This document shows positions 5,334 to 64,000 of a DNA stretch of 64,000 nucleotides, piece by piece (the first letter of the stretch is position 1; each line of letters starts with the position of its first letter). This DNA comes from Leucobacter sp. UT-8R-CII-1-4 (GTDB taxonomy: Bacteria > Actinomycetota > Actinomycetes > Actinomycetales > Microbacteriaceae): NCBI RefSeq assembly GCF_030010235.1, contig NZ_JASCRS010000004.1:186001-250000 (forward strand). The letters are read 5' to 3'. The notes under the pieces were generated by a model, which searched no databases, was not told where the DNA came from, and saw only the letters and a program-made list of their open reading frames with translations. Position numbers and translations under genes: made by a program.

Positions 5334-7550
5334 TTAGACCGTCAGATCAAAACGGTCGAGATTTGATACCTTCACCCAAGCTTTCACAAAATCGTGAGTG
5401 AAGGAATCAGCTGCATCATCACTCGCATACACCTCGGCCACGGCGCGCAGTTCGGAGTTTGAACCGAACACCAGATCGGCCCTGGTGCCGCGCCAATTGC
5501 GCTCGCCGCTGGCATCATCACTCGCTTCAAACGCGCGCGACCCCGGATCAAGCGGCGTCCAAGTGGTGTTCAGATCAAGAAGATTCACAAAAAAGTCGTT
5601 GCTCAGCACACCGGGACGATCGGTGAGCACACCGTAGTTTGAGCCGTCCCAATTGGCGCCGAGTACTCGCAAACCGCCAAGCAGCACGGTCATCTCGGGG
5701 GCCGAAAGTGTCAAGAGATTCGCTCGATCTATCAGCAAATGCTCTGCTGGGTAACCCAAGCCTCGTTCGCTCTCATAATTTCGGAATCCATCTGCTGCTG
5801 GTTCAAGATATCCGAACGACTCAACATCGGTCTGCTCCTGGCTCGCGTCTGTTCGACCAGGCGTGAACGGTACAGACACATCGACGCCTCCAGCCGCGGC
5901 TGCGCGGGCAACACCAACATTGCCGGCGAGCACAACCAGGTCGGCAAAAGAAACCTGAGAGTCAGCATCCTCTCGGGAGTTGAACTCAGTTTGAATCGCC
6001 TCAAGCTTGGCAATCACACCGACAAGCTTTTCTGGGCGGTTCACCTGCCAAGAGCGCTGCGGCTCGAGGCGAATTCTGCCGCCATTGGCACCGCCGCGTT
6101 TATCGCTACCGCGATAGGTCGACATTGCCGCCCACGCTGTTCCGACAAGCTCGGCAATGCTGAGTCCAGACTCGGCGATTCGCTGCTCAAGAAGAGCAAG
6201 ATCTTCGGGAGTGACTAGCGGGTAATCCCGCTCAGGAAGTGGGTCTTGCCAGAGCAAGTCTTCAGCAGGAACCTCAGCGCCAAGATATCGAGTTTTTGGG
6301 CCCAAGTCGCGGTGCGTGAGTTTAAACCAGGCGCGACTGTAGGCCTCCGTGAATGCCATCTGATCGTCTCGGAACCGGAGTGAGATTTCACGGTACGCGG
6401 GATCTTCGCGCAGCGACAGATCGGTGGTGAGCATACGGGGCTCACGGCGCTCGTGGCCCTGTGCCATCGGCACCATGTCCGATCCACCGCCATCTACTGG
6501 GCGCCAGTGAAAATGCCCGCCTTCGCCCGTGACCAGCTCCCACTCGTAACCGAACAGAATGTGCAAAAACTCGTTGTCCCACCGGGTCGGGTGATAAGTC
6601 CAGGTGACCTCGATACCCGAGCCGATGGTGTCGTTGCCGTGCCCGGTGCCAAAGTTGCTTTGCCAACCGAGTCCCTGCGCCGACATGGGAGCAGCCTCAG
6701 GTTCGGGCCCTACATGATCGTCAGCAGGAGCGGCACCATGAGTCTTGCCGAAGGTGTGACCGCCAGCGATGAGTGCCACGGTTTCTTCGTCGTTCATGCC
6801 CATGCGCTTGAAGGTCTCGCGGATTTCGTGCGCGGCGGCGAGTGGGTCTGGTGTGCCGCCGGGCCCTTCGGGGTTTACGTAAATGAGTCCCATCATCGTG
6901 GCAGCGAGTGGTTTTTGCAGACTCTTGCGGTGTGCTTCCCCAGCCAGGCGATCTTCGTCGCCCAACCAGGTGCGTTCTGATCCCCAGTAGACGTCGTCAT
7001 CTGGTTCCCACACGTCGGGGCGTCCTCCGGCAAAGCCAAAGGCTGGCATGCCCATCTCCTCGTGAGCCACGTTTCCGGCGAGAATCATGAGGTCACCCCA
7101 CGAGAGCGACTTGCCGTACTTCTTTTTCACCGGCCAAAGTAGGCGTCTGGCTTTGTCTAGACCGACGTTATCTGGCCAGCTATTGAGGGGCGCGAAACGC
7201 TGTTGCCCGGTGCCACCTCCGCCACGGCCATCAAACACGCGGTAGGTGCCTGCAGAATGCCAGGCCATTCGAATCATGAGCGGACCGTAATTGTTAAAGT
7301 CAGCGGGCCACCAAGGTTGGGAATTCACGAGCAGGCTGGCAATGTCGCGTTTCACTTCGTCGAGGTTGAGCGAGAGGAAAGCTGAACGGTAGTCAAAATC
7401 GACTCCCTGTGGATTCGCAACAGCGGAGTGTTTTGAGAGAATCTTGAGGTTTAGACGGTCTGGCCACCAATCAGAATTGTTTTGAGCGTGAGTTCTGGCT
7501 GCACTATTGCCGTTTTCGCCAAAAGTTACTGGGCATTTCGGGTCTGACAT
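5334..7550 (-). CDS. katG: Catalase-peroxidase KatG
   Basis: A bifunctional haem catalase/peroxidase that removes H2O2. The protein is 738 aa, the usual two-domain length. The distal Arg-Trp-His are in [11 protein letters not shown], the adduct Tyr is in YVNPEGPGG, the adduct Met is in the FKRMGMND region, and the proximal His is in [10 protein letters not shown]. The frame extends upstream to 7604, but the ATG at 7550 follows an AAGGAG site 7 nt away and begins MSDPKCPVT, the normal N-terminus. It is monocistronic, convergent with the LRR gene. A near-palindrome upstream may be a redox or Fur-type operator. Confidence 0.97.
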
Positions 7551-7596
7551 GTAGAGGCTCCTTACAAGCTGGTGGCTGGCGTGCTGCTTGCCTATC

Positions 7597-7612
7597 AAAT
7601 GCAATTGAATTT
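7597..7612. promoter_or_regulatory. Near-palindrome upstream of katG
   Basis: AAATGCAATTGAATTT is a 16-bp palindrome with one mismatched pair, about 47 bases upstream of the katG start. Actinobacterial katG genes are often controlled by FurA-type repressors that bind AT-rich palindromes. The assignment here rests on position and symmetry only. Confidence 0.3.
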
Positions 7613-7778
7613 CAGGTGACTGCGTTCTTGTCCACTAGGCGCCCCATTTGGGTACAAGCGTGAACAAAAATGCGTAGCTGGGTGGGGCGCTTAGGCATCA
7701 CTCGCAGTGAGCCTTTTGCTTTGAATCTTTGCCTGCGGAGAGTTTCAGGCTGGTAGCGCTCGCAATATGATCGAAGAC

Positions 7779-8861
7779 ATGTGCACAAGAGTTGTCTGGC
7801 CAGATGCGAACGGCGCGGTTCTCGTGGGTCGCAATATGGACTTTCGGATGGACCTACTGACTAACCTGTGGAAGTATCCGCGCGGCATGAAACGCACCGA
7901 CGGGGTGCACGGCAAACTGAATTGGACTTCGAAATACGGCAGCCTTGTCGCCACAGCCTTTGACCTGGTCGGCACTGACGGCATGAACGAAAAGGGTTTT
8001 GCGGGGCACATTCTTTGGCTCGCGGAGTCGGAATACGGAAAGCCTGACACTGATGCCACGCAACTGAGCCAGGCTGTCTGGCTGCAGTACTACCTCGATA
8101 ATTTTGCAACGGTTGAAGAGGCAGTGGAGTGGACCCGGCAATCTCAGGTGCAAATTGCGCAGCTATTTGACCCAACCGGCAATCTCGTGCCAACACTGCA
8201 CCTCGCGCTTGATGATGCCACTGGTGACTCGGCGATTATTGAATACACTGACGGCTTGCCAACGATTTACCACAGCCGCGACTACAAGGTAATGACCAAC
8301 TCGCCGACTTACGACCAGCAGCTTGAACTTGTGAAAGAGTTCGAGGGGCTCGGCGGTGAAAAACCATTACCCGGATCGACGCTCGCAACCGATCGCTTTG
8401 CGCGCGCCTCGTACTATGTGGAGCGCCAGGAGCAGCCGGCCACACAGCTTGCGGCGATTGCGGCAATGTTCAGCATTATTCGAAACGTGGCCCAGCCGTT
8501 CCGTACGCCGGATCCTGGAAAACCGGATGCTTCGCAGACGATTTGGCAGGTGGTGCTCGACCTCACAAATCGTCGCTACGTCTTCGAGTCGACCACCCGG
8601 CCCGGCATCGTCTGGGTAGACCTAGACGAACTCAGCTTTAGCGAGGGGTCGAAGGTGCTGCGACTTGATCTGGTCGGGCGCTTGGCGCTTGAGGGTGGCC
8701 TCGCTGGCAATGTCAGTCGAAGCTTTAGCGATGTCGGTGAGTTTGCGAGCGAGGTGCTTGCCACTGGACGCAAAGCGCTCGAATTTATTGCGACAAGGCA
8801 GGCGGAGTTTGCGGTTATTCAGCAAGCGGTGCAGTCTCTGGTCGGCAAGAAGCGTGAGTGA
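7779..8861 (+). CDS. Linear-amide C-N hydrolase (choloylglycine hydrolase / penicillin V acylase family)
   Basis: An Ntn-fold hydrolase that cleaves linear amide bonds such as bile-salt conjugates, penicillin V or acyl-homoserine lactones. The frame is open from 7767, but the second ATG (7779) is chosen because the family needs Cys right after Met1: it gives MCTRVVW, and after Met removal Cys1, Arg17 and Asp20 (in GRNMDF) fall at the conserved spacing. The mature enzyme is about 359 aa. No signal peptide is visible. Its stop overlaps the GTG start of the FUSC-like membrane gene, suggesting one operon. The substrate cannot be deduced. Confidence 0.85.
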   Translation: MCTRVVWPDANGAVLVGRNMDFRMDLLTNLWKYPRGMKRTDGVHGKLNWTSKYGSLVATAFDLVGTDGMNEKGFAGHILWLAESEYGKPDTDATQLSQAVWLQYYLDNFATVEEAVEWTRQSQVQIAQLFDPTGNLVPTLHLALDDATGDSAIIEYTDGLPTIYHSRDYKVMTNSPTYDQQLELVKEFEGLGGEKPLPGSTLATDRFARASYYVERQEQPATQLAAIAAMFSIIRNVAQPFRTPDPGKPDASQTIWQVVLDLTNRRYVFESTTRPGIVWVDLDELSFSEGSKVLRLDLVGRLALEGGLAGNVSRSFSDVGEFASEVLATGRKALEFIATRQAEFAVIQQAVQSLVGKKRE

Positions 8862-58412: not shown

Positions 58413-58417
58413 AACTG

Positions 58418-58459
58418 TCGGGTTGACAGGATTTGAACCTGCGACCCCTTGACCCCCAG
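58418..58459 (-). tRNA. tRNA-Pro(GGG) 3'-half fragment (attachment-site scar)
   Basis: Read on the minus strand, 42 bases match tRNA-Pro from the anticodon loop (CTGGGGG, anticodon GGG) through the anticodon 3' stem TCAAG, a variable GGGTC, the T arm with GGTTCAAATCC and the acceptor 3' strand ending CCCGA. The sequence to the right (5' side of the tRNA) does not continue as a tRNA: no D arm is present. This is the form left by site-specific integration at a tRNA 3' end, with the intact gene expected at the far end of the island. Confidence 0.85.
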
Positions 58460-58943
58460 GCAGACGGATCGGGCTCCGAACCCGCGTTTTCGGAGGTTTC
58501 GGTGGCTCATACATTGCACAGCGCGTCACAGATTACATGCGGTCCAGGGATGTTGGCCACCAAATTGGCCCACTAGATTCGTAACCACCGCACTGCTCCA
58601 GAAGCCAGTTTCTGACGAGTTAACGGCGACTGAGTCGCCCCCCCCGGAGGGGCGCAGATAGAGCTAGCCTGCGCGATCAGGGTCGGCTCGACTGCCTTCT
58701 GCCGCGGCCTGCGTTAGCTGTCGTCGAGCGATAGCAGGACGATCGAGAGGGCAGAGCATGCCATCATGATGCCCCTGGCCCGCAGCTTGACGTCGGACCC
58801 AATCCGGCGAGCGTAGATGGGGAACGGTCGACCGATTCCGGACCCTCCTACGACACCAATTAATAATAGTTTAATATCAATAAACTATTTAAGTGATATG
58901 CTTGATTTATGGACAACAATTTCACTGCGTGCTGGAGTCGGCG
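58460..58943. other. Gene-free left margin of the island
   Basis: About 480 bp with no supported gene. It starts at the attachment scar and ends in an AT-rich segment before the kinase gene that holds a perfect dyad and probably the promoter. No integrase is seen at this end. Confidence 0.6.
58865..58889. promoter_or_regulatory. Operator-like dyad before the HTH-kinase gene
   Basis: AATAGTTTA-ATATCAA-TAAACTATT, perfect 9-bp arms and 7-bp spacer, in an AT-rich island 55 bases before the kinase start. The kinase N-terminus has a helix-turn-helix-like segment, so autoregulation is possible. Confidence 0.55.
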
Positions 58944-60491
58944 ATGAGGCTCGGCGGCCTGAGTGAGGTAGCAGAGGAACTGGGGGTGACCCCCCAGCGA
59001 ATCGCCGCACTGCGGCAACGACCCGACTTTCCGGATGCTATCGGGGAGATTGCTCAGGGGCCGATCTGGGATCTAGATGTCGTCAACGCCTGGAATGGGT
59101 CGGGCCTTCGTCAGAGAAAAGCCGGACGCCCGAAGTCTGACCTGACTGTCAGGACCCTGGGTGGCCGGTTCATCCTTGAGCTTCCAGCGATCGGAAGCGG
59201 CGGGTTCGCCGACGTCTTCCGGGCAACCGACCGGAAGACAGGCAACCTCGTCGCCGTCAAGGTGCTGCGGGATACAGCCACCGTGGATGCGGAAGTGATC
59301 AGCCGCTTCAAGCGAGAACTGCGGATATTGGAAGGGCTGGCTCACCCCAACGTGATTCCCGTGATCGCGCAAGGCGAGACCGACGAGCAAGACGTCTGGT
59401 ATGCAATGCCCCTAGCGCAGGGCAGTTTGGCTGACTTCATCAGAAAGGTCGATAGCAACCCGCCACTGATCGTGGACATCATGCGTCAGATCTGCACTGG
59501 ACTTATGTACATCCATGGGAACGGGGTCTACCACCGGGACCTGAAGCCCGCGAACGTGCTGCGACTCGAGAGCGGCGAGTGGGCGGTGTCCGATTTTGGC
59601 CTCGCAGTCGAGGCGGAACGAAATACAGCCCCACTCACATCCACGCTTCGTGCTGGTATGGGCTCCTGGGTATACGCAGCGCCGGAGCAGTGGGCCCGGG
59701 CACGCAGTGCCGACCACCTTTCCGACGTCTACAGCCTCGGTAAGATCCTGCAGGAACTCGTGACCCAGGACTACCCAGTCAATACGGAGATGACGGCGGG
59801 CCCTTTGCGCCCGGTCGTAGAACGCGCCACCGCAAACAACCCCGCTGGCCGATACGCCTCAGTCTCGGAGTTTCTCGAAGCGCTCGAGCGTTCCCTCGGC
59901 GCTCGCCAGGAGCACGAGAGCTGGGAATCTCGCGAACAGACAGCAGAACGACTCCGCGATCGAATGCTGAGCCCCTCAACGACACCGGCCGATCTGATCG
60001 AAATGTTTGAGTGGGCCACTCTTCTCGACGAATCTGACGAGGATGATATGAAGGCGCTCAGCCGGGTCCTGCCATGGTGTACCTCGTCGTCCATCGAGTT
60101 CCTCTGGGACCGCGAGCGAGGCGCGTTCCGCCGTCTGTTCGAGCGGTTCACCGACTACGTCAAGCGCACGGGCTTCTCGTTCGAGTACTGCGATGTGCTT
60201 GCGAACTTCATGCAGCGTGTCGTCGATACCATCGGCGACTCTAGCATTCTGCGCATGGCGGTCGCCGCGCTCGCCATCCTCGGCCCGGGCCACGGTCGTT
60301 GGCATGTGCGGGATGTGTTGGTCTCGGTACTGCAGGACGTCAAGTCGGAAGAGATGTCGATGGCTGCTCTCGAGGGGTTGCGATCGGTGAGCCGCAGCCA
60401 GGTCGCCTGGTCCATCACCGACTTTACCGTTCGCACGCTACCGCCGGCGATCCGGGTCGGTATCTCGGACTGGATAGGCGAGGCCAGCTGA
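58944..60491 (+). CDS. Ser/Thr protein kinase with N-terminal DNA-binding-like domain
   Basis: A 515-aa cytosolic Hanks-type kinase. Residues about 1-62 resemble a MerR/AlpA-type helix-turn-helix (LSEVAEELGVTPQRIAALRQRPDFPDAIG). The kinase domain has GSGGFADVF (84-92), Lys106 in AVKVL, HRDLKPAN (197-204) and DFG (217-219), so it is probably active. The C-terminal 180 residues are helical and unassigned; there is no TM. ATG 58944 with GGAG is preferred to a GTG at 58893. Its stop is followed by the peptide and helicase genes. Role in defence signalling is inferred. Confidence 0.88.
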   Translation: MRLGGLSEVAEELGVTPQRIAALRQRPDFPDAIGEIAQGPIWDLDVVNAWNGSGLRQRKAGRPKSDLTVRTLGGRFILELPAIGSGGFADVFRATDRKTGNLVAVKVLRDTATVDAEVISRFKRELRILEGLAHPNVIPVIAQGETDEQDVWYAMPLAQGSLADFIRKVDSNPPLIVDIMRQICTGLMYIHGNGVYHRDLKPANVLRLESGEWAVSDFGLAVEAERNTAPLTSTLRAGMGSWVYAAPEQWARARSADHLSDVYSLGKILQELVTQDYPVNTEMTAGPLRPVVERATANNPAGRYASVSEFLEALERSLGARQEHESWESREQTAERLRDRMLSPSTTPADLIEMFEWATLLDESDEDDMKALSRVLPWCTSSSIEFLWDRERGAFRRLFERFTDYVKRTGFSFEYCDVLANFMQRVVDTIGDSSILRMAVAALAILGPGHGRWHVRDVLVSVLQDVKSEEMSMAALEGLRSVSRSQVAWSITDFTVRTLPPAIRVGISDWIGEAS

Positions 60492-60527: not shown

Positions 60528-60647
60528 ATGCCAAAGGGAAGAACGGCCGCGTCACGCGGCCGTGTGTCCCGAGACGGCGGTGGTTCACAACGAAGAAGAG
60601 CTGAGCAGCTAAGGCTTCGTGTGAGCCAAGCGGAGCCGCCTTGGTAG
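60528..60647 (+). CDS. Small basic 39-aa protein
   Basis: ATG lies 8 nt after AAAGGAGG, the best ribosome-binding site in the island. The product begins MPKGRTAASRGRVSRDGGG and ends AEQLRLRVSQAEPPW; it has 9 Arg and 1 Lys. Basic, Gly/Arg-rich: nucleic-acid binding is possible. It sits between kinase and helicase and overlaps the earliest possible start of the helicase frame. No homologue is recognised. Confidence 0.5.
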   Translation: MPKGRTAASRGRVSRDGGGSQRRRAEQLRLRVSQAEPPW

Positions 60648-60703
60648 GCGGTCCCATTCCCAGCATAAACACCAACCCGTTACCATCATGTTCGGAGAAG
60701 TAC

Positions 60704-62488
60704 GTGAAGACCGACCAGTACGTCGTGGCGCAACCCACGATTGCCGCCAACCCGGAGTTGCGGGAACCGCAGATCCTCGCCTTTGAAGCGATCGAGAAGC
60801 ACGACTTTAACGCTGTCGACGCCCGCGAGGTTTCGGTCGTCCTGCCAGTGGGGTGCGGCAAGTCCGGGCTCCTTGCCCTTGCCCCCTTCGCGACGAAGGC
60901 AAGGCGCGCTCTGCTTGTCGCGCCGAACCTGAAGATCGCCGACCAGTTACTGGGCGATCTCACCCCGAGCAACCCGAAGTACTTCTATACCAAGCGAAAG
61001 GTCCTCGATCACGAGCCCTTCCCTGAGCCTGCAGAGATCCGCGGAACGTCTAGCAACATCGGCGACCTCGAGGAAGCCGACATTGTCGTCACGAACATTC
61101 AGCAGCTGCAGCGCGACAACAACAAGTGGCTCGGCAAGCTCCCCAGCGACTTCTTCGACTTGATCCTCTTCGACGAGGGCCACCACAACGTCGCCGAGAG
61201 CTGGGACGCGTTGCGACGTAAGTTCCCAGACGCGCGGATCTTGAATGTAAGCGCGACCCCGGCCCGCGCAGACGGAAAAGTAATGACCGGCCAAGTCATC
61301 TACAGCTACCCAATTTCCAAGGCCGTCGAAAAGGGGTACATCAAGCGCATCAACGGATACCGCCTCAACCCGACTACACTGCACTACGTTCGCCATGAGG
61401 GAGGCACCGAAGTCGAGGTCTCTCTGAATGAAGTGCGCCGTCTCGGCGAGGAGGACGCCGGCTTCCGACGCAGCATCGTCAGCTCCGAGGCCACCCTCAC
61501 CACGATCGCCGAAGCATCCATCCGCAAGCTTCAGGAGATGCGGGAGTCCACCGGCCAGCCCCGCCTAAAGATCATCGCCTCCGCTCTCAACATGGAGCAC
61601 TGCAAGCAGGTCGTCGCAAAGTACCGCGAACTGGGAATGCGTGCCGACTTCGTCCATAGCCTGCTCGCGGAGAAGGCGAACGGGCGCATCCACGAAAAGC
61701 TCGAGAACCACGAACTGGACGTTATCGTGCAGGTTCGGAAGCTCGGCGAAGGCTTCGATCACCCCTATCTCAGCGTCGCTGCGGTATTCAGCATCTTCAG
61801 CAACCTCGGGCCGTTCATGCAGTTCGTCGGCCGCATCATGCGCACGATCCCCGGCGTGGACGCCTTCGACCCCGTCAACGACGGAGTCGTGGTCTTCCAC
61901 GTCGGAGGGAACATCACCGGCGTCTGGACAGACTTCCAGGAGTTCGCGGAGGCTGACCAGGTCTTCTTCGCGAACCTGATCGACGAGAACCTGGTGGAAC
62001 CCACCACAACCCGTGAGCCCGGCACGGGAGGCAACGGCGGAGGCAGCAACCTTCCGGTAATCACCGCACAGGACGACGTACTGCTGGAGAATCTCACTCT
62101 CCTCACTGCCGACCCCAAGATCGCGGAGGCCCTCGCGGTTCTGAAGGATGCAGGCATCAGCACTGGAGAGCAGTTCGACCGGTTGCAGCGGATCACCCCA
62201 ACTAAGCAGGCATCCCGCAAGGCCAAGCGGGCGCTGCTCGACGAGCTTGTGAAGACCGCAGTCGGCCGGTTCCTCGCCAAGCACAACCTCAAGCACGCCG
62301 GCCGCGACTTCGACAAGACCCGTGAAAATTTTAAGGTTGCGAAGTCCGCCATCGACCTTCGCATCAAAAAGACGGTCCCCAGCGGCGCGAGCACCCGCAG
62401 CGAATACTCGACCGCGGATCTGGACCATCTCATCAAGGAACTACCGAATATCATCGGCCATGTTGAAGAGGAGTTGCGTCGTGGGTAG
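60704..62488 (+). CDS. SF2 helicase (DEAH-type, restriction-helicase-like)
   Basis: A 594-aa protein of the COG1061/type III restriction-helicase group. Walker A PVGCGKS (48-54), DEGH (157-160), motif III SAT (183-185), and motif VI QFVGRIMRT (373-381) are intact. The C-terminal 200 aa after a Gly-rich linker (about 448-456) is helical and unassigned; no nuclease motif is seen. GTG 60704 has GGAG nearby; a TTG at 60641 is also in frame. It overlaps the next gene. Helicases of this group occur in many phage-defence systems. Confidence 0.87.
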   Translation: MKTDQYVVAQPTIAANPELREPQILAFEAIEKHDFNAVDAREVSVVLPVGCGKSGLLALAPFATKARRALLVAPNLKIADQLLGDLTPSNPKYFYTKRKVLDHEPFPEPAEIRGTSSNIGDLEEADIVVTNIQQLQRDNNKWLGKLPSDFFDLILFDEGHHNVAESWDALRRKFPDARILNVSATPARADGKVMTGQVIYSYPISKAVEKGYIKRINGYRLNPTTLHYVRHEGGTEVEVSLNEVRRLGEEDAGFRRSIVSSEATLTTIAEASIRKLQEMRESTGQPRLKIIASALNMEHCKQVVAKYRELGMRADFVHSLLAEKANGRIHEKLENHELDVIVQVRKLGEGFDHPYLSVAAVFSIFSNLGPFMQFVGRIMRTIPGVDAFDPVNDGVVVFHVGGNITGVWTDFQEFAEADQVFFANLIDENLVEPTTTREPGTGGNGGGSNLPVITAQDDVLLENLTLLTADPKIAEALAVLKDAGISTGEQFDRLQRITPTKQASRKAKRALLDELVKTAVGRFLAKHNLKHAGRDFDKTRENFKVAKSAIDLRIKKTVPSGASTRSEYSTADLDHLIKELPNIIGHVEEELRRG

Positions 62489-62708
62489 CCAACGCTCATT
62501 GTTGAGGTCCCTCTCCGTGGACACTGCGAAACGAAAGCACTACTGCAAAGCCAACAAGAGACACGTGCTCGAAAAGGGGCAACGAATTCTGGTGGTCAAA
62601 ATCGACAGGGACCGCTTCCACTACTGCTTTGACTGTGCACTGAAGTTTGTCACTACCGCTCGATCGGGTCTTGACGCGCTCGAGACCGAACTACGGTCTG
62701 ATCCCTGA
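62481..62708 (+). CDS. Small Cys-rich protein, probable zinc finger
   Basis: A 75-aa protein starting at GTG 62481, inside the helicase stop region, with GAGGAG 7 nt upstream. It has KHYC...HYCFDC, three Cys plus nearby His, spaced like a zinc knuckle, and KIDRDR between. It is translationally coupled to the helicase and probably acts with it. Confidence 0.65.
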   Translation: MGSQRSLLRSLSVDTAKRKHYCKANKRHVLEKGQRILVVKIDRDRFHYCFDCALKFVTTARSGLDALETELRSDP

Positions 62709-62862: not shown

Positions 62863-64000
62863 ATGGCGACCGTCGTTGCTCTCTCCGGATCTGTCGCGTC
62901 CGGGAAGACTACTCTCGCTAAGGCTCTGGAAGAACGTTGGGGCGGGGTGATCATTTCCACTCGGGAGGTGCTGGCCAAGCGCGCCTCTGAGCGGCGAGTG
63001 AGCTTGACAAACAGAAGAGACTTTCAGGAGTTCGGGGATTTACTGGACCGGGAAACGGGAGGTTCATGGGTGGCTGAAGCCTCCCATGCCAGCAAAGACA
63101 CTGTCGAAAGCCTCATAATTATCGACGCAGTTCGAATTGAGCAGCAAGTTAGCGCACTAAGGGAGATCTTTGGGAGATCTCTAGTTCATGTGCATCTCGA
63201 GACCAGTAGCCGCGAAGAACTCGCCAATCGATATCGCAAGCGGCGAGGATCGAACGCGTACTTCGAAGAGCTTGGGAGCTACGAAGAAGTTCTTGAGAAC
63301 GAAACCGAAGCTCTCATTGCGAATCTCGGCATGCACGCCGATGTGGTTATTGACACTTTGCGCAACACGGAGAAAGATCTTCTAGTTCGTTGCGAAGCTC
63401 GACTAGGCCTCCTCCCCTCCCTTACAGACCCGCTGGCGGATGTGCTCGTTGGTGGGCAGTACGGTTCAGAGGGCAAGGGGAACGTTTCCTACTATTTGGC
63501 GCCGGAATACCATTCACTCATACGGGTGGGTGGCCCAAACGCCGGGCATAAAGTCTGGCACGACGGAAAATCGTACACCCATCGCTCGCTTCCCTCGGGG
63601 GCCTTATCGAACCCTCACGCAGACCTTATCATCGGGCCCGGCGCTGTTCTCAACCTTTCGGTTCTTCAGAATGAACTGCAAGAGACAGGTGTAGATCCCG
63701 GCAGAGTTAAGATCGACCCTCAGGTAATGGTCATAACGGATGAGGACATAGCCGCAGAGAAGGACCTTCGTCGTGCGATCCAATCCACGGGGCAAGGAGC
63801 AGGAGCCGCTGCAGCCCGAAGAATCACTGGCAGAGGAGAACCTAGAGCACAATTAGCCAAGGACCTTCCCGAGTTTGCGAGCTTTCTTCATCCCACTGCG
63901 GATCTTCTTCACGAAGCGTTCAAACAGGGCAACCGCGTCTTAGTGGAAGGCACCCAAGGAACAGGCCTCAGCCTCTACCATGGGACATACCCCTACGTTA
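62863..64000 (+). CDS. P-loop nucleotide kinase fused to PurZ/PurA-like adenylosuccinate synthetase (3' cut by window)
   Basis: At least 379 aa, open to the last base. Residues 1-180 are a P-loop nucleoside-monophosphate-kinase-like domain with Walker A SGSVASGKTT and a LID-like basic segment (ELANRYRKRRGSN). From residue 193 the protein is adenylosuccinate-synthetase-like: GGQYGSEGKG (197-206), NAGHK with His229 (PurA His41), PSGALSNPH, STGQG (308-312) and EGTQGTGLSLYHGTYPYV near the end. PurA uses Asp in GDEGKG; here it is Ser202, and STGQG replaces the PurA TTGRG, both as in phage PurZ, which makes 2-amino-adenine precursor from dGMP. ATG follows GGAAAGGAAG. Confidence 0.85.
   Translation, partial: MATVVALSGSVASGKTTLAKALEERWGGVIISTREVLAKRASERRVSLTNRRDFQEFGDLLDRETGGSWVAEASHASKDTVESLIIIDAVRIEQQVSALREIFGRSLVHVHLETSSREELANRYRKRRGSNAYFEELGSYEEVLENETEALIANLGMHADVVIDTLRNTEKDLLVRCEARLGLLPSLTDPLADVLVGGQYGSEGKGNVSYYLAPEYHSLIRVGGPNAGHKVWHDGKSYTHRSLPSGALSNPHADLIIGPGAVLNLSVLQNELQETGVDPGRVKIDPQVMVITDEDIAAEKDLRRAIQSTGQGAGAAAARRITGRGEPRAQLAKDLPEFASFLHPTADLLHEAFKQGNRVLVEGTQGTGLSLYHGTYPYV

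Follow-up and report, generated by a model that had tools for sequence, protein, structure and literature searches.

A kinase-synthetase fusion gene on a mobile island

The stretch of DNA analysed here, referred to as the window, comprises 64,000 nucleotides of a contig of Leucobacter sp. UT-8R-CII-1-4. The gene under study begins close to its right end, occupies positions 62863-64482 on the + strand (L004:8864-10483; window position = L004 position + 53999), runs 482 bases past the window end and encodes a protein of 539 aa. Its start at 62863, first proposed in a sequence-only reading, was borne out by an ATG that follows a GGAAAGGA-type ribosome site. The same reading had described the product as a nucleotide kinase and a PurZ-like synthetase in one protein, and Pfam profiles indeed found both domains: Adenylsucc_synt scored 173.6 bits (cut-off 27) and AAA_18 scored 29.4 bits, which is exactly its cut-off. 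The P-loop, adenylate-kinase-like kinase domain with the AAA_18 match takes up the N-terminal residues 1-182 (62863..63408, + strand), and the PurA/PurZ-fold synthetase domain takes up residues 193-539 (63439-64000 in the window and on to window-equivalent 64482, + strand).

To compare the protein with its relatives, we used a set of 120 listed homologues out of 6192 matches, the window's own protein being among the 120. Alignments to the listed homologues span 90-100% of the query, and 119 of these proteins retain Ser202, which argues that the fusion is more than a chance joining. In the window's family the fusion occurs in 2 of 80 species, its own species counted, a rarity such as accessory genes show, and the same genome encodes a separate, full PurA elsewhere (592 bits). 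Judged by record titles, fusion loci are found in Actinomycetota, Pseudomonadota, Bacteroidota, Planctomycetota, Acidobacteriota and Verrucomicrobiota, as well as in Chloroflexota, Myxococcota, Synergistaceae, Gemmatimonadetes and archaea. One archaeal contig (L025, 10001-15363, genome G005) carries two fusion genes facing each other, together with DUF7002 and a peptidase/macrodomain gene.

The proposed location of the gene in a bacterial island was confirmed, since an 11.1-kb segment is bounded by perfect 45-bp direct repeats and has an integrase at its right end (window-equivalent 68221-69375, + strand). The left repeat, likely attL, lies at 58417..58461 and the right one at window-equivalent 69504-69548 (L004:15505-15549). 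To our eye, the repeat presumably has a tRNA-like look; at the island ends, ARAGORN found no tRNA and Rfam gave only miRNA models far below gathering scores. From left to right, the island holds a Ser/Thr protein kinase gene (58893..60491, + strand; Pkinase 135.5 bits, PADLOC PD-T4-6 175.5 bits), which is probably an independent defence gene, an SF2/ResIII-type helicase gene whose start codon is uncertain (60641..62488, + strand; ResIII 82.9 bits) and, directly after it, a gene for a 75-aa Cys-containing small protein (62481..62708, + strand). The fusion gene is followed, just past the window end, by DUF7002, a predicted DarT-like ADP-ribosyltransferase (64494-65135, L004:10495-11136, + strand), then by a gene of the PRA-PH family by Pfam, hereafter MazG-type (65186-65722, L004:11187-11723, − strand), and by an AbiE pair (window-equivalent 66444-67840, − strand). 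The region is a defence neighbourhood, for immediately beyond the island lie QatD and a gene matched as PDC-S39, a candidate for defence (window-equivalent 69813-72583, L004:15814-18584).

Ser202 and the placement of the synthetase domain

In the GSEGKG motif of the synthetase domain, Ser202 (codon 63466..63468, + strand) occupies the position of PurA's catalytic Asp, as had been read from the sequence. Among the 120 listed homologues residue 202 is Ser in 119 and Asn in one. At the pocket residues that PMC8342488 names for S-2L PurZ, we compared 25 fusions with nine phage enzymes, with a rhizobial enzyme that stands alone, and with 13 PurA, one of which is an archaeal short form. At the catalytic place all 25 fusions, all nine phage enzymes and the rhizobial enzyme have Ser, whereas all 13 PurA have Asp. 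At residue 480 the fusion shares the Phe of PurZ in place of the Lys of PurA, and the PIRV...SG loop resembles that of the ten PurZ-type enzymes (nine phage and one rhizobial), unlike that of the genome's own PurA. Most pocket residues (N226, A227, T309, Q365, R413 and V414) do not separate PurA from PurZ, so the argument depends chiefly on Ser202. The STGQG motif was correctly located at 308-312, but it is less diagnostic than Ser202, since the archaeal short PurA with a catalytic Asp also has Ser there. Asp482, at a site which we take to be the GTP-recognising position of PurA (PurA Asp333), is as in PurA and PurZ0, versus Asn or Gln in PurZ, and is kept in 120/120 listed homologues. Arg324, near the uncertainly aligned site of S-2L Arg146, is kept in 117/120.

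Curated profiles place the predicted synthetase between families. PRK04293, the archaeal short PurA profile, gave the highest score among them (295.5 bits, cut-off 368), followed by the PurZ profile NF038379 (204.4 bits, cut-off 300) and the purA profile (197 bits, cut-off 395.55); the phage family phrog_1211 scored 227.1 bits. That archaeal PurA scores above PurZ, with neither reaching its cut-off, speaks against the PurZ reading. A firm place inside bacterial PurA with an Asp elsewhere, named beforehand as a refuting result, was sought without success, as the scores stay below the PurA cut-offs and the site is Ser. The predicted model of the fusion (pLDDT 84.5; loops 367-381 and 417-420 are weak) has as its best Foldseek match the archaeal PurA of Pyrococcus solved with IMP (5k7x, E 4.1e-30) and as its second structural match the phage enzyme 6fko (E 1.5e-23).

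A tree was built from 48 sequences with a single archaeal short PurA; four of the 17 PurA loci (L100-L102, L122), in which no start motif was found, were dropped. The fusions form one clade (UFBoot 100%) between PurA and phage PurZ/PurZ0, and the split that unites them with PurA has a support of 98. Given this split, a root on PurA makes the fusions the first branch of the Ser-bearing group, and only with that root are they sister to the PurZ-type group. A survey of viruses, PMC12884076, reports Ser for 147 PurZ sequences of phages and places near them four sequences from archaea in which the residue is Ser or Gly. The sequence-only reading had taken the substrate to be a guanine nucleotide rather than IMP. 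Ser202, the tree and the gene context favour a guanine nucleotide, and a preference for deoxynucleotides is proposed for the predicted enzyme.

Conserved residues of the kinase domain

The nearest solved fold of the kinase domain is 3lw7, an adenylate-kinase-related structure (Foldseek E 2.3e-6). Walker A is kept in 119/120 listed homologues, and D88, R91, Q95 and R123 in 120/120. The idea that the fused kinase would act on a product of the pathway fits this conservation, which includes a D-x-x-R-x-x-x-Q motif in all 120, presumably of the adenylate-kinase kind. In adenylate kinases, AMP is bound by an Arg and a Gln from a motif of this type, and an adenine-like monophosphate such as dZMP is therefore a plausible substrate of the domain. 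A further likeness is to the kinase-like region of anti-phage dCTP deaminase (PADLOC dCTPase, E 7.4e-6; NF041025, E 1.7e-4).

DUF7002 is the near-constant partner of the fusion

To find what accompanies the fusion, we examined 84 loci: the window's own, four plasmid loci taken from eight plasmid records with 80% coverage, and 79 distinct loci from the best 80 of 285 genome-contig relatives. The profiles used for counting were built partly from the same loci (DUF7002 38 rows, peptidase/macrodomain 26, MazG 11, HD 5, PurB 4), and a match of those rows is therefore built in. A DUF7002 gene accompanies the fusion in 83 of the 84 loci; in the exception (L070) the contig stops 38 bases past the match. 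In 73 of the 84 it shares the strand of the fusion and is directly downstream, a term defined here by stop-to-stop frames within -150 to +300 bases; L051, which has no single-frame fusion, was counted as a locus and not as adjacent. The island kinase and helicase, which had been mentioned as the setting of the fusion, turned out to be inconstant companions. Relatives of the helicase occur in 3/83 other loci at E <= 1e-3 (strong in L022 and L076, weak in L075 with E 4.8e-5) and relatives of the Ser/Thr kinase in 2/83. In L022, L076 and the window (60641-62708), the helicase is followed by a small Cys protein, perhaps as a separate defence pair.

The predicted structure of DUF7002 has the DarT-type ADP-ribosyltransferase fold, the first seven rows of the VIA search all being DarT, and its residues H15, R55 and E187 are invariant. 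By sequence the likeness to DarT is weak (PADLOC DarT, E 0.016; alignment profile to 8baq, E 0.043), no curated DarT profile matched, and Pfam recognised no separate sensor domain in it. Among 149 genomes of the order, five others have DUF7002, all of them without the fusion, and two of these five copies are whole and free of stops. A strict tie of DUF7002 to the fusion was thus rejected, because the converse of the pairing fails: DUF7002 has a life of its own outside the cassette. Fusion-less copies were seen in other actinobacteria (L214, L215, L216 and L217), with no recognisable neighbours in the three loci read.

A protein that joins an M78 peptidase to a macrodomain is present in 64 of the 84 loci, and its two-domain frame is directly upstream of the fusion in 57. 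The macrodomain protein is absent from the window's locus and from the four plasmid loci, which are rhizobial; a search of the window's whole genome, run without a positive control, found none either, and no substitute was recognised at the window's locus. A MazG-type hydrolase gene occurs in 15/84 loci, the window's included, and in eight of the 20 macrodomain-less loci, the window's again among them. An HD hydrolase gene, DatZ-like by hhalign (95.7%, E 9.9e-9), was found in 4/84. MazZ had been reported missing, which holds inside the window, but the MazG/PRA-PH gene lies 0.7 kb past the fusion gene. Its likeness to three phage MazZ proteins (hhalign 69.6%, E 4.2e-5) is too weak for us to call it MazZ.

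Other nucleotide genes recur less often. Extra kinase clusters are near the fusion in six and three loci (nine together), and a PurB gene in only 5/84. All four cassette PurB proteins scanned score above the purB cut-off, and each of the four genomes with a cassette PurB that were checked has exactly one other PurB above cut-off. With one to three members of each neighbour cluster scanned, no Z-selective polymerase was found among the recurring neighbours; defence genes among those scanned were GajA (L008, L018 and L054), type I R-M genes (L011) and HmaA (L023). The 17 PurA loci that served as control showed no kinase domain, DUF7002 or macrodomain, a weak control because these loci are only 2.3-4.3 kb long. 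On a Sinorhizobium medicae plasmid (L098, 5290-9931), a lone Ser-type synthetase without kinase domain has as neighbours an HD-type gene and two genes of 340 aa and 443 aa; the group may be a sister system.

Fusions on phage contigs

The fusion had been read as lying outside a phage context. This stands for many cellular genomes but is not general, since 10 of the best 80 IMG/VR contigs (of 225 relatives) carry a whole fusion, two of them (L131 and L134) being identical. In 218 phage records with a match, none spans 80% of the fusion protein. Three of the ten whole-fusion contigs have DUF7002, and two of those three also have the peptidase/macrodomain protein; in the other seven (L126, L128, L129, L131, L133, L134 and L178) DUF7002 is absent from the stretch examined.

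Several fusions on the DUF7002-less contigs sit in replication modules: the fusion of L131 is flanked by genes for DnaB helicase, primase and family A polymerase, and L178 and L126 have theirs beside DNA polymerases. In L133 a DUF4406/deoxyribosyltransferase-like gene adjoins the fusion. As PMC12884076 describes PurZ0 phages that use NDT- and Dut-like enzymes, phages with the fusion may be Z-DNA users as well, and we regard the viral contigs that lack DUF7002 as candidate Z-genome phages of a new type. The best stretch of likeness between these phage polymerases and DpoZ, 28% over 204 residues, was unconvincing, and the gene after the fusion in L129 gave no match as MazZ (19.7%). Two arrangements were seen besides. 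In L165 (IMG/VR, 5920-8019), successive genes encode PurZ, a stand-alone kinase and a dUTPase-family protein, an arrangement that looks like a split fusion; the last of these genes, like the deoxyribosyltransferase-like gene of L133, recalls the enzymes of PurZ0 phages. L130 (IMG/VR, 5950-8209) has two tandem kinase-domain frames, of which the second is the fusion.

A possible pathway to Z-deoxynucleotides and its alternatives

Z is 2-aminoadenine, and its synthesis is known as a phage trick. The reading that we prefer, although we put it at a little under an even chance, is that of a mobile cassette in which Z-deoxynucleotide synthesis by the PurZ-kinase fusion is combined with a DarT-like ADP-ribosyltransferase, likely against phage. 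Every reaction and the defence role in it are inferred from what was observed, namely sequence, conservation, neighbourhoods and model-to-structure matches. That the fusion and DUF7002 likely form one anti-phage system follows from their pairing in 83/84 loci. A MazG-type or HD hydrolase would supply dGMP, which the synthetase domain would join with aspartate to give dSMP. Fumarate would then be removed by a PurB, encoded by the host or, in some loci, by the cassette itself, to yield dZMP, and the fused adenylate-kinase-like domain would convert this to dZDP. The host's Ndk would complete the route to dZTP. The role of toxin would fall to DUF7002, which would attach ADP-ribose to a base; the M78-peptidase/macrodomain protein, where present, as it is in most loci, would detect infection and remove the ADP-ribose. 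The two halves could be joined by 'mark and strike', in which Z that enters replicating phage DNA offers the ADP-ribosyltransferase a 2-amino group. This target is suggested by DarT1, which modifies the amino group of guanine according to PMC11543638. The link between Z and the toxin is the weakest step, and we consider it doubtful.

Other explanations account for parts of these data. Since the kinase domain is like that of anti-phage dCTP deaminase, an enzyme that drains dCTP, and a MazG-type gene, a potential dGTP breaker, is near the fusion in 15/84 loci, the cassette might instead drain dGTP/dGMP into dSMP and starve phage DNA synthesis, with the kinase-like domain as a regulator. We think this unlikely, as the active-site residues of the kinase are kept, the further PurB or kinases of some loci argue that the product is carried forward, and the ADP-ribosyltransferase is left unexplained. 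The near-constant pairing with one effector-like gene (83/84 loci) would be explained if Z or a succino-nucleotide were an infection signal that switches on the DarT-like or the peptidase/macrodomain protein. Other systems are known in which metabolic enzymes make nucleotide messengers, and the lack of a Z-selective polymerase among the recurring neighbours also fits a signal. However, no separate sensor domain was recognised in DUF7002, and for the seven of ten whole-fusion phage contigs without DUF7002 in the stretch examined a building block is the simpler product, so that we give a signal only a small chance.

Two further readings change the substrate or the target. The synthetase could be an ordinary paralogue of the archaeal type that still uses IMP while the DUF7002 toxin does the real work, as the top curated profile (archaeal PurA), the top structural match (5k7x) and Asp482, kept in 120/120 listed homologues, would suggest. 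The general base Asp is nevertheless Ser in 119/120 listed homologues, the genome already has a full PurA (592 bits) and the tree, if rooted on PurA, puts the fusions with the Ser group; we therefore hold an IMP enzyme to be rather improbable. Alternatively, the cell's own DNA might carry Z and the DarT-like enzyme attack Z-less DNA, a form of restriction-modification by ADP-ribosylation. Expression of purZ, mazZ and datZ puts Z into the DNA of E. coli, as stated in PMC8342488, yet such marking would require constant expression, no Z-selective polymerase recurs in the cassettes and the DatZ-like HD gene is confined to 4/84 loci, which makes it very improbable.

In the open PMC literature we found no description of the fusion, DUF7002 or the cassette. 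The cassette is real, widely conserved and apparently undescribed; its components are of known kinds, and there is a fair chance that it represents a new kind of immunity. That a PurZ-like enzyme is widespread in cells, paired in 83/84 loci with a predicted ADP-ribosyltransferase and at times with an additional PurB, suggests that Z-type nucleotides are also made by cells, probably in conflicts. The origin of phage PurZ, the function of DUF7002 and the notion of immunity through changed DNA letters can thereby be put to the test.

Comparison with known systems

The cassette shares features with several known systems. In anti-phage dCTP deaminase as in the fusion, an enzyme that alters nucleotides is preceded by a P-loop kinase-like domain, and these two domains are related, but the enzyme of the fusion is a synthetase in place of a deaminase and would act on a purine in place of a pyrimidine; Pfam gave no deaminase match, and the PADLOC dCTPase model matches residues 3-168 only. 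With DarTG toxin-antitoxin systems the cassette has in common the predicted DarT-like fold of DUF7002 and, in 64/84 loci, a macrodomain. It differs from them in that the macrodomain is fused to an M78 peptidase and nucleotide enzymes are added, and the window's locus is macrodomain-less.

The archaeal short adenylosuccinate synthetase (PRK04293; Pyrococcus 5k7x and 2d7u) is alike in its short form of the fold and gives the top profile score, whereas the fusion scores below that cut-off and is set apart by the change of Asp to Ser, by Phe480 for Lys, by the kinase domain and by the cassette context. With phage PurZ/PurZ0 and the phage Z clusters (purZ, mazZ, datZ, dutZ and dmtZ), the fusion shares the synthetase fold, the Ser site and the PIRV-SG loop, and in some loci MazG- or HD-type hydrolases nearby. 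Unlike PurZ itself, it stays below the PurZ profile cut-off and has Asp482, as PurZ0 and PurA do. What distinguishes it from both PurZ and PurZ0 is its kinase domain, its many cellular hosts and its near-constant partner DUF7002.
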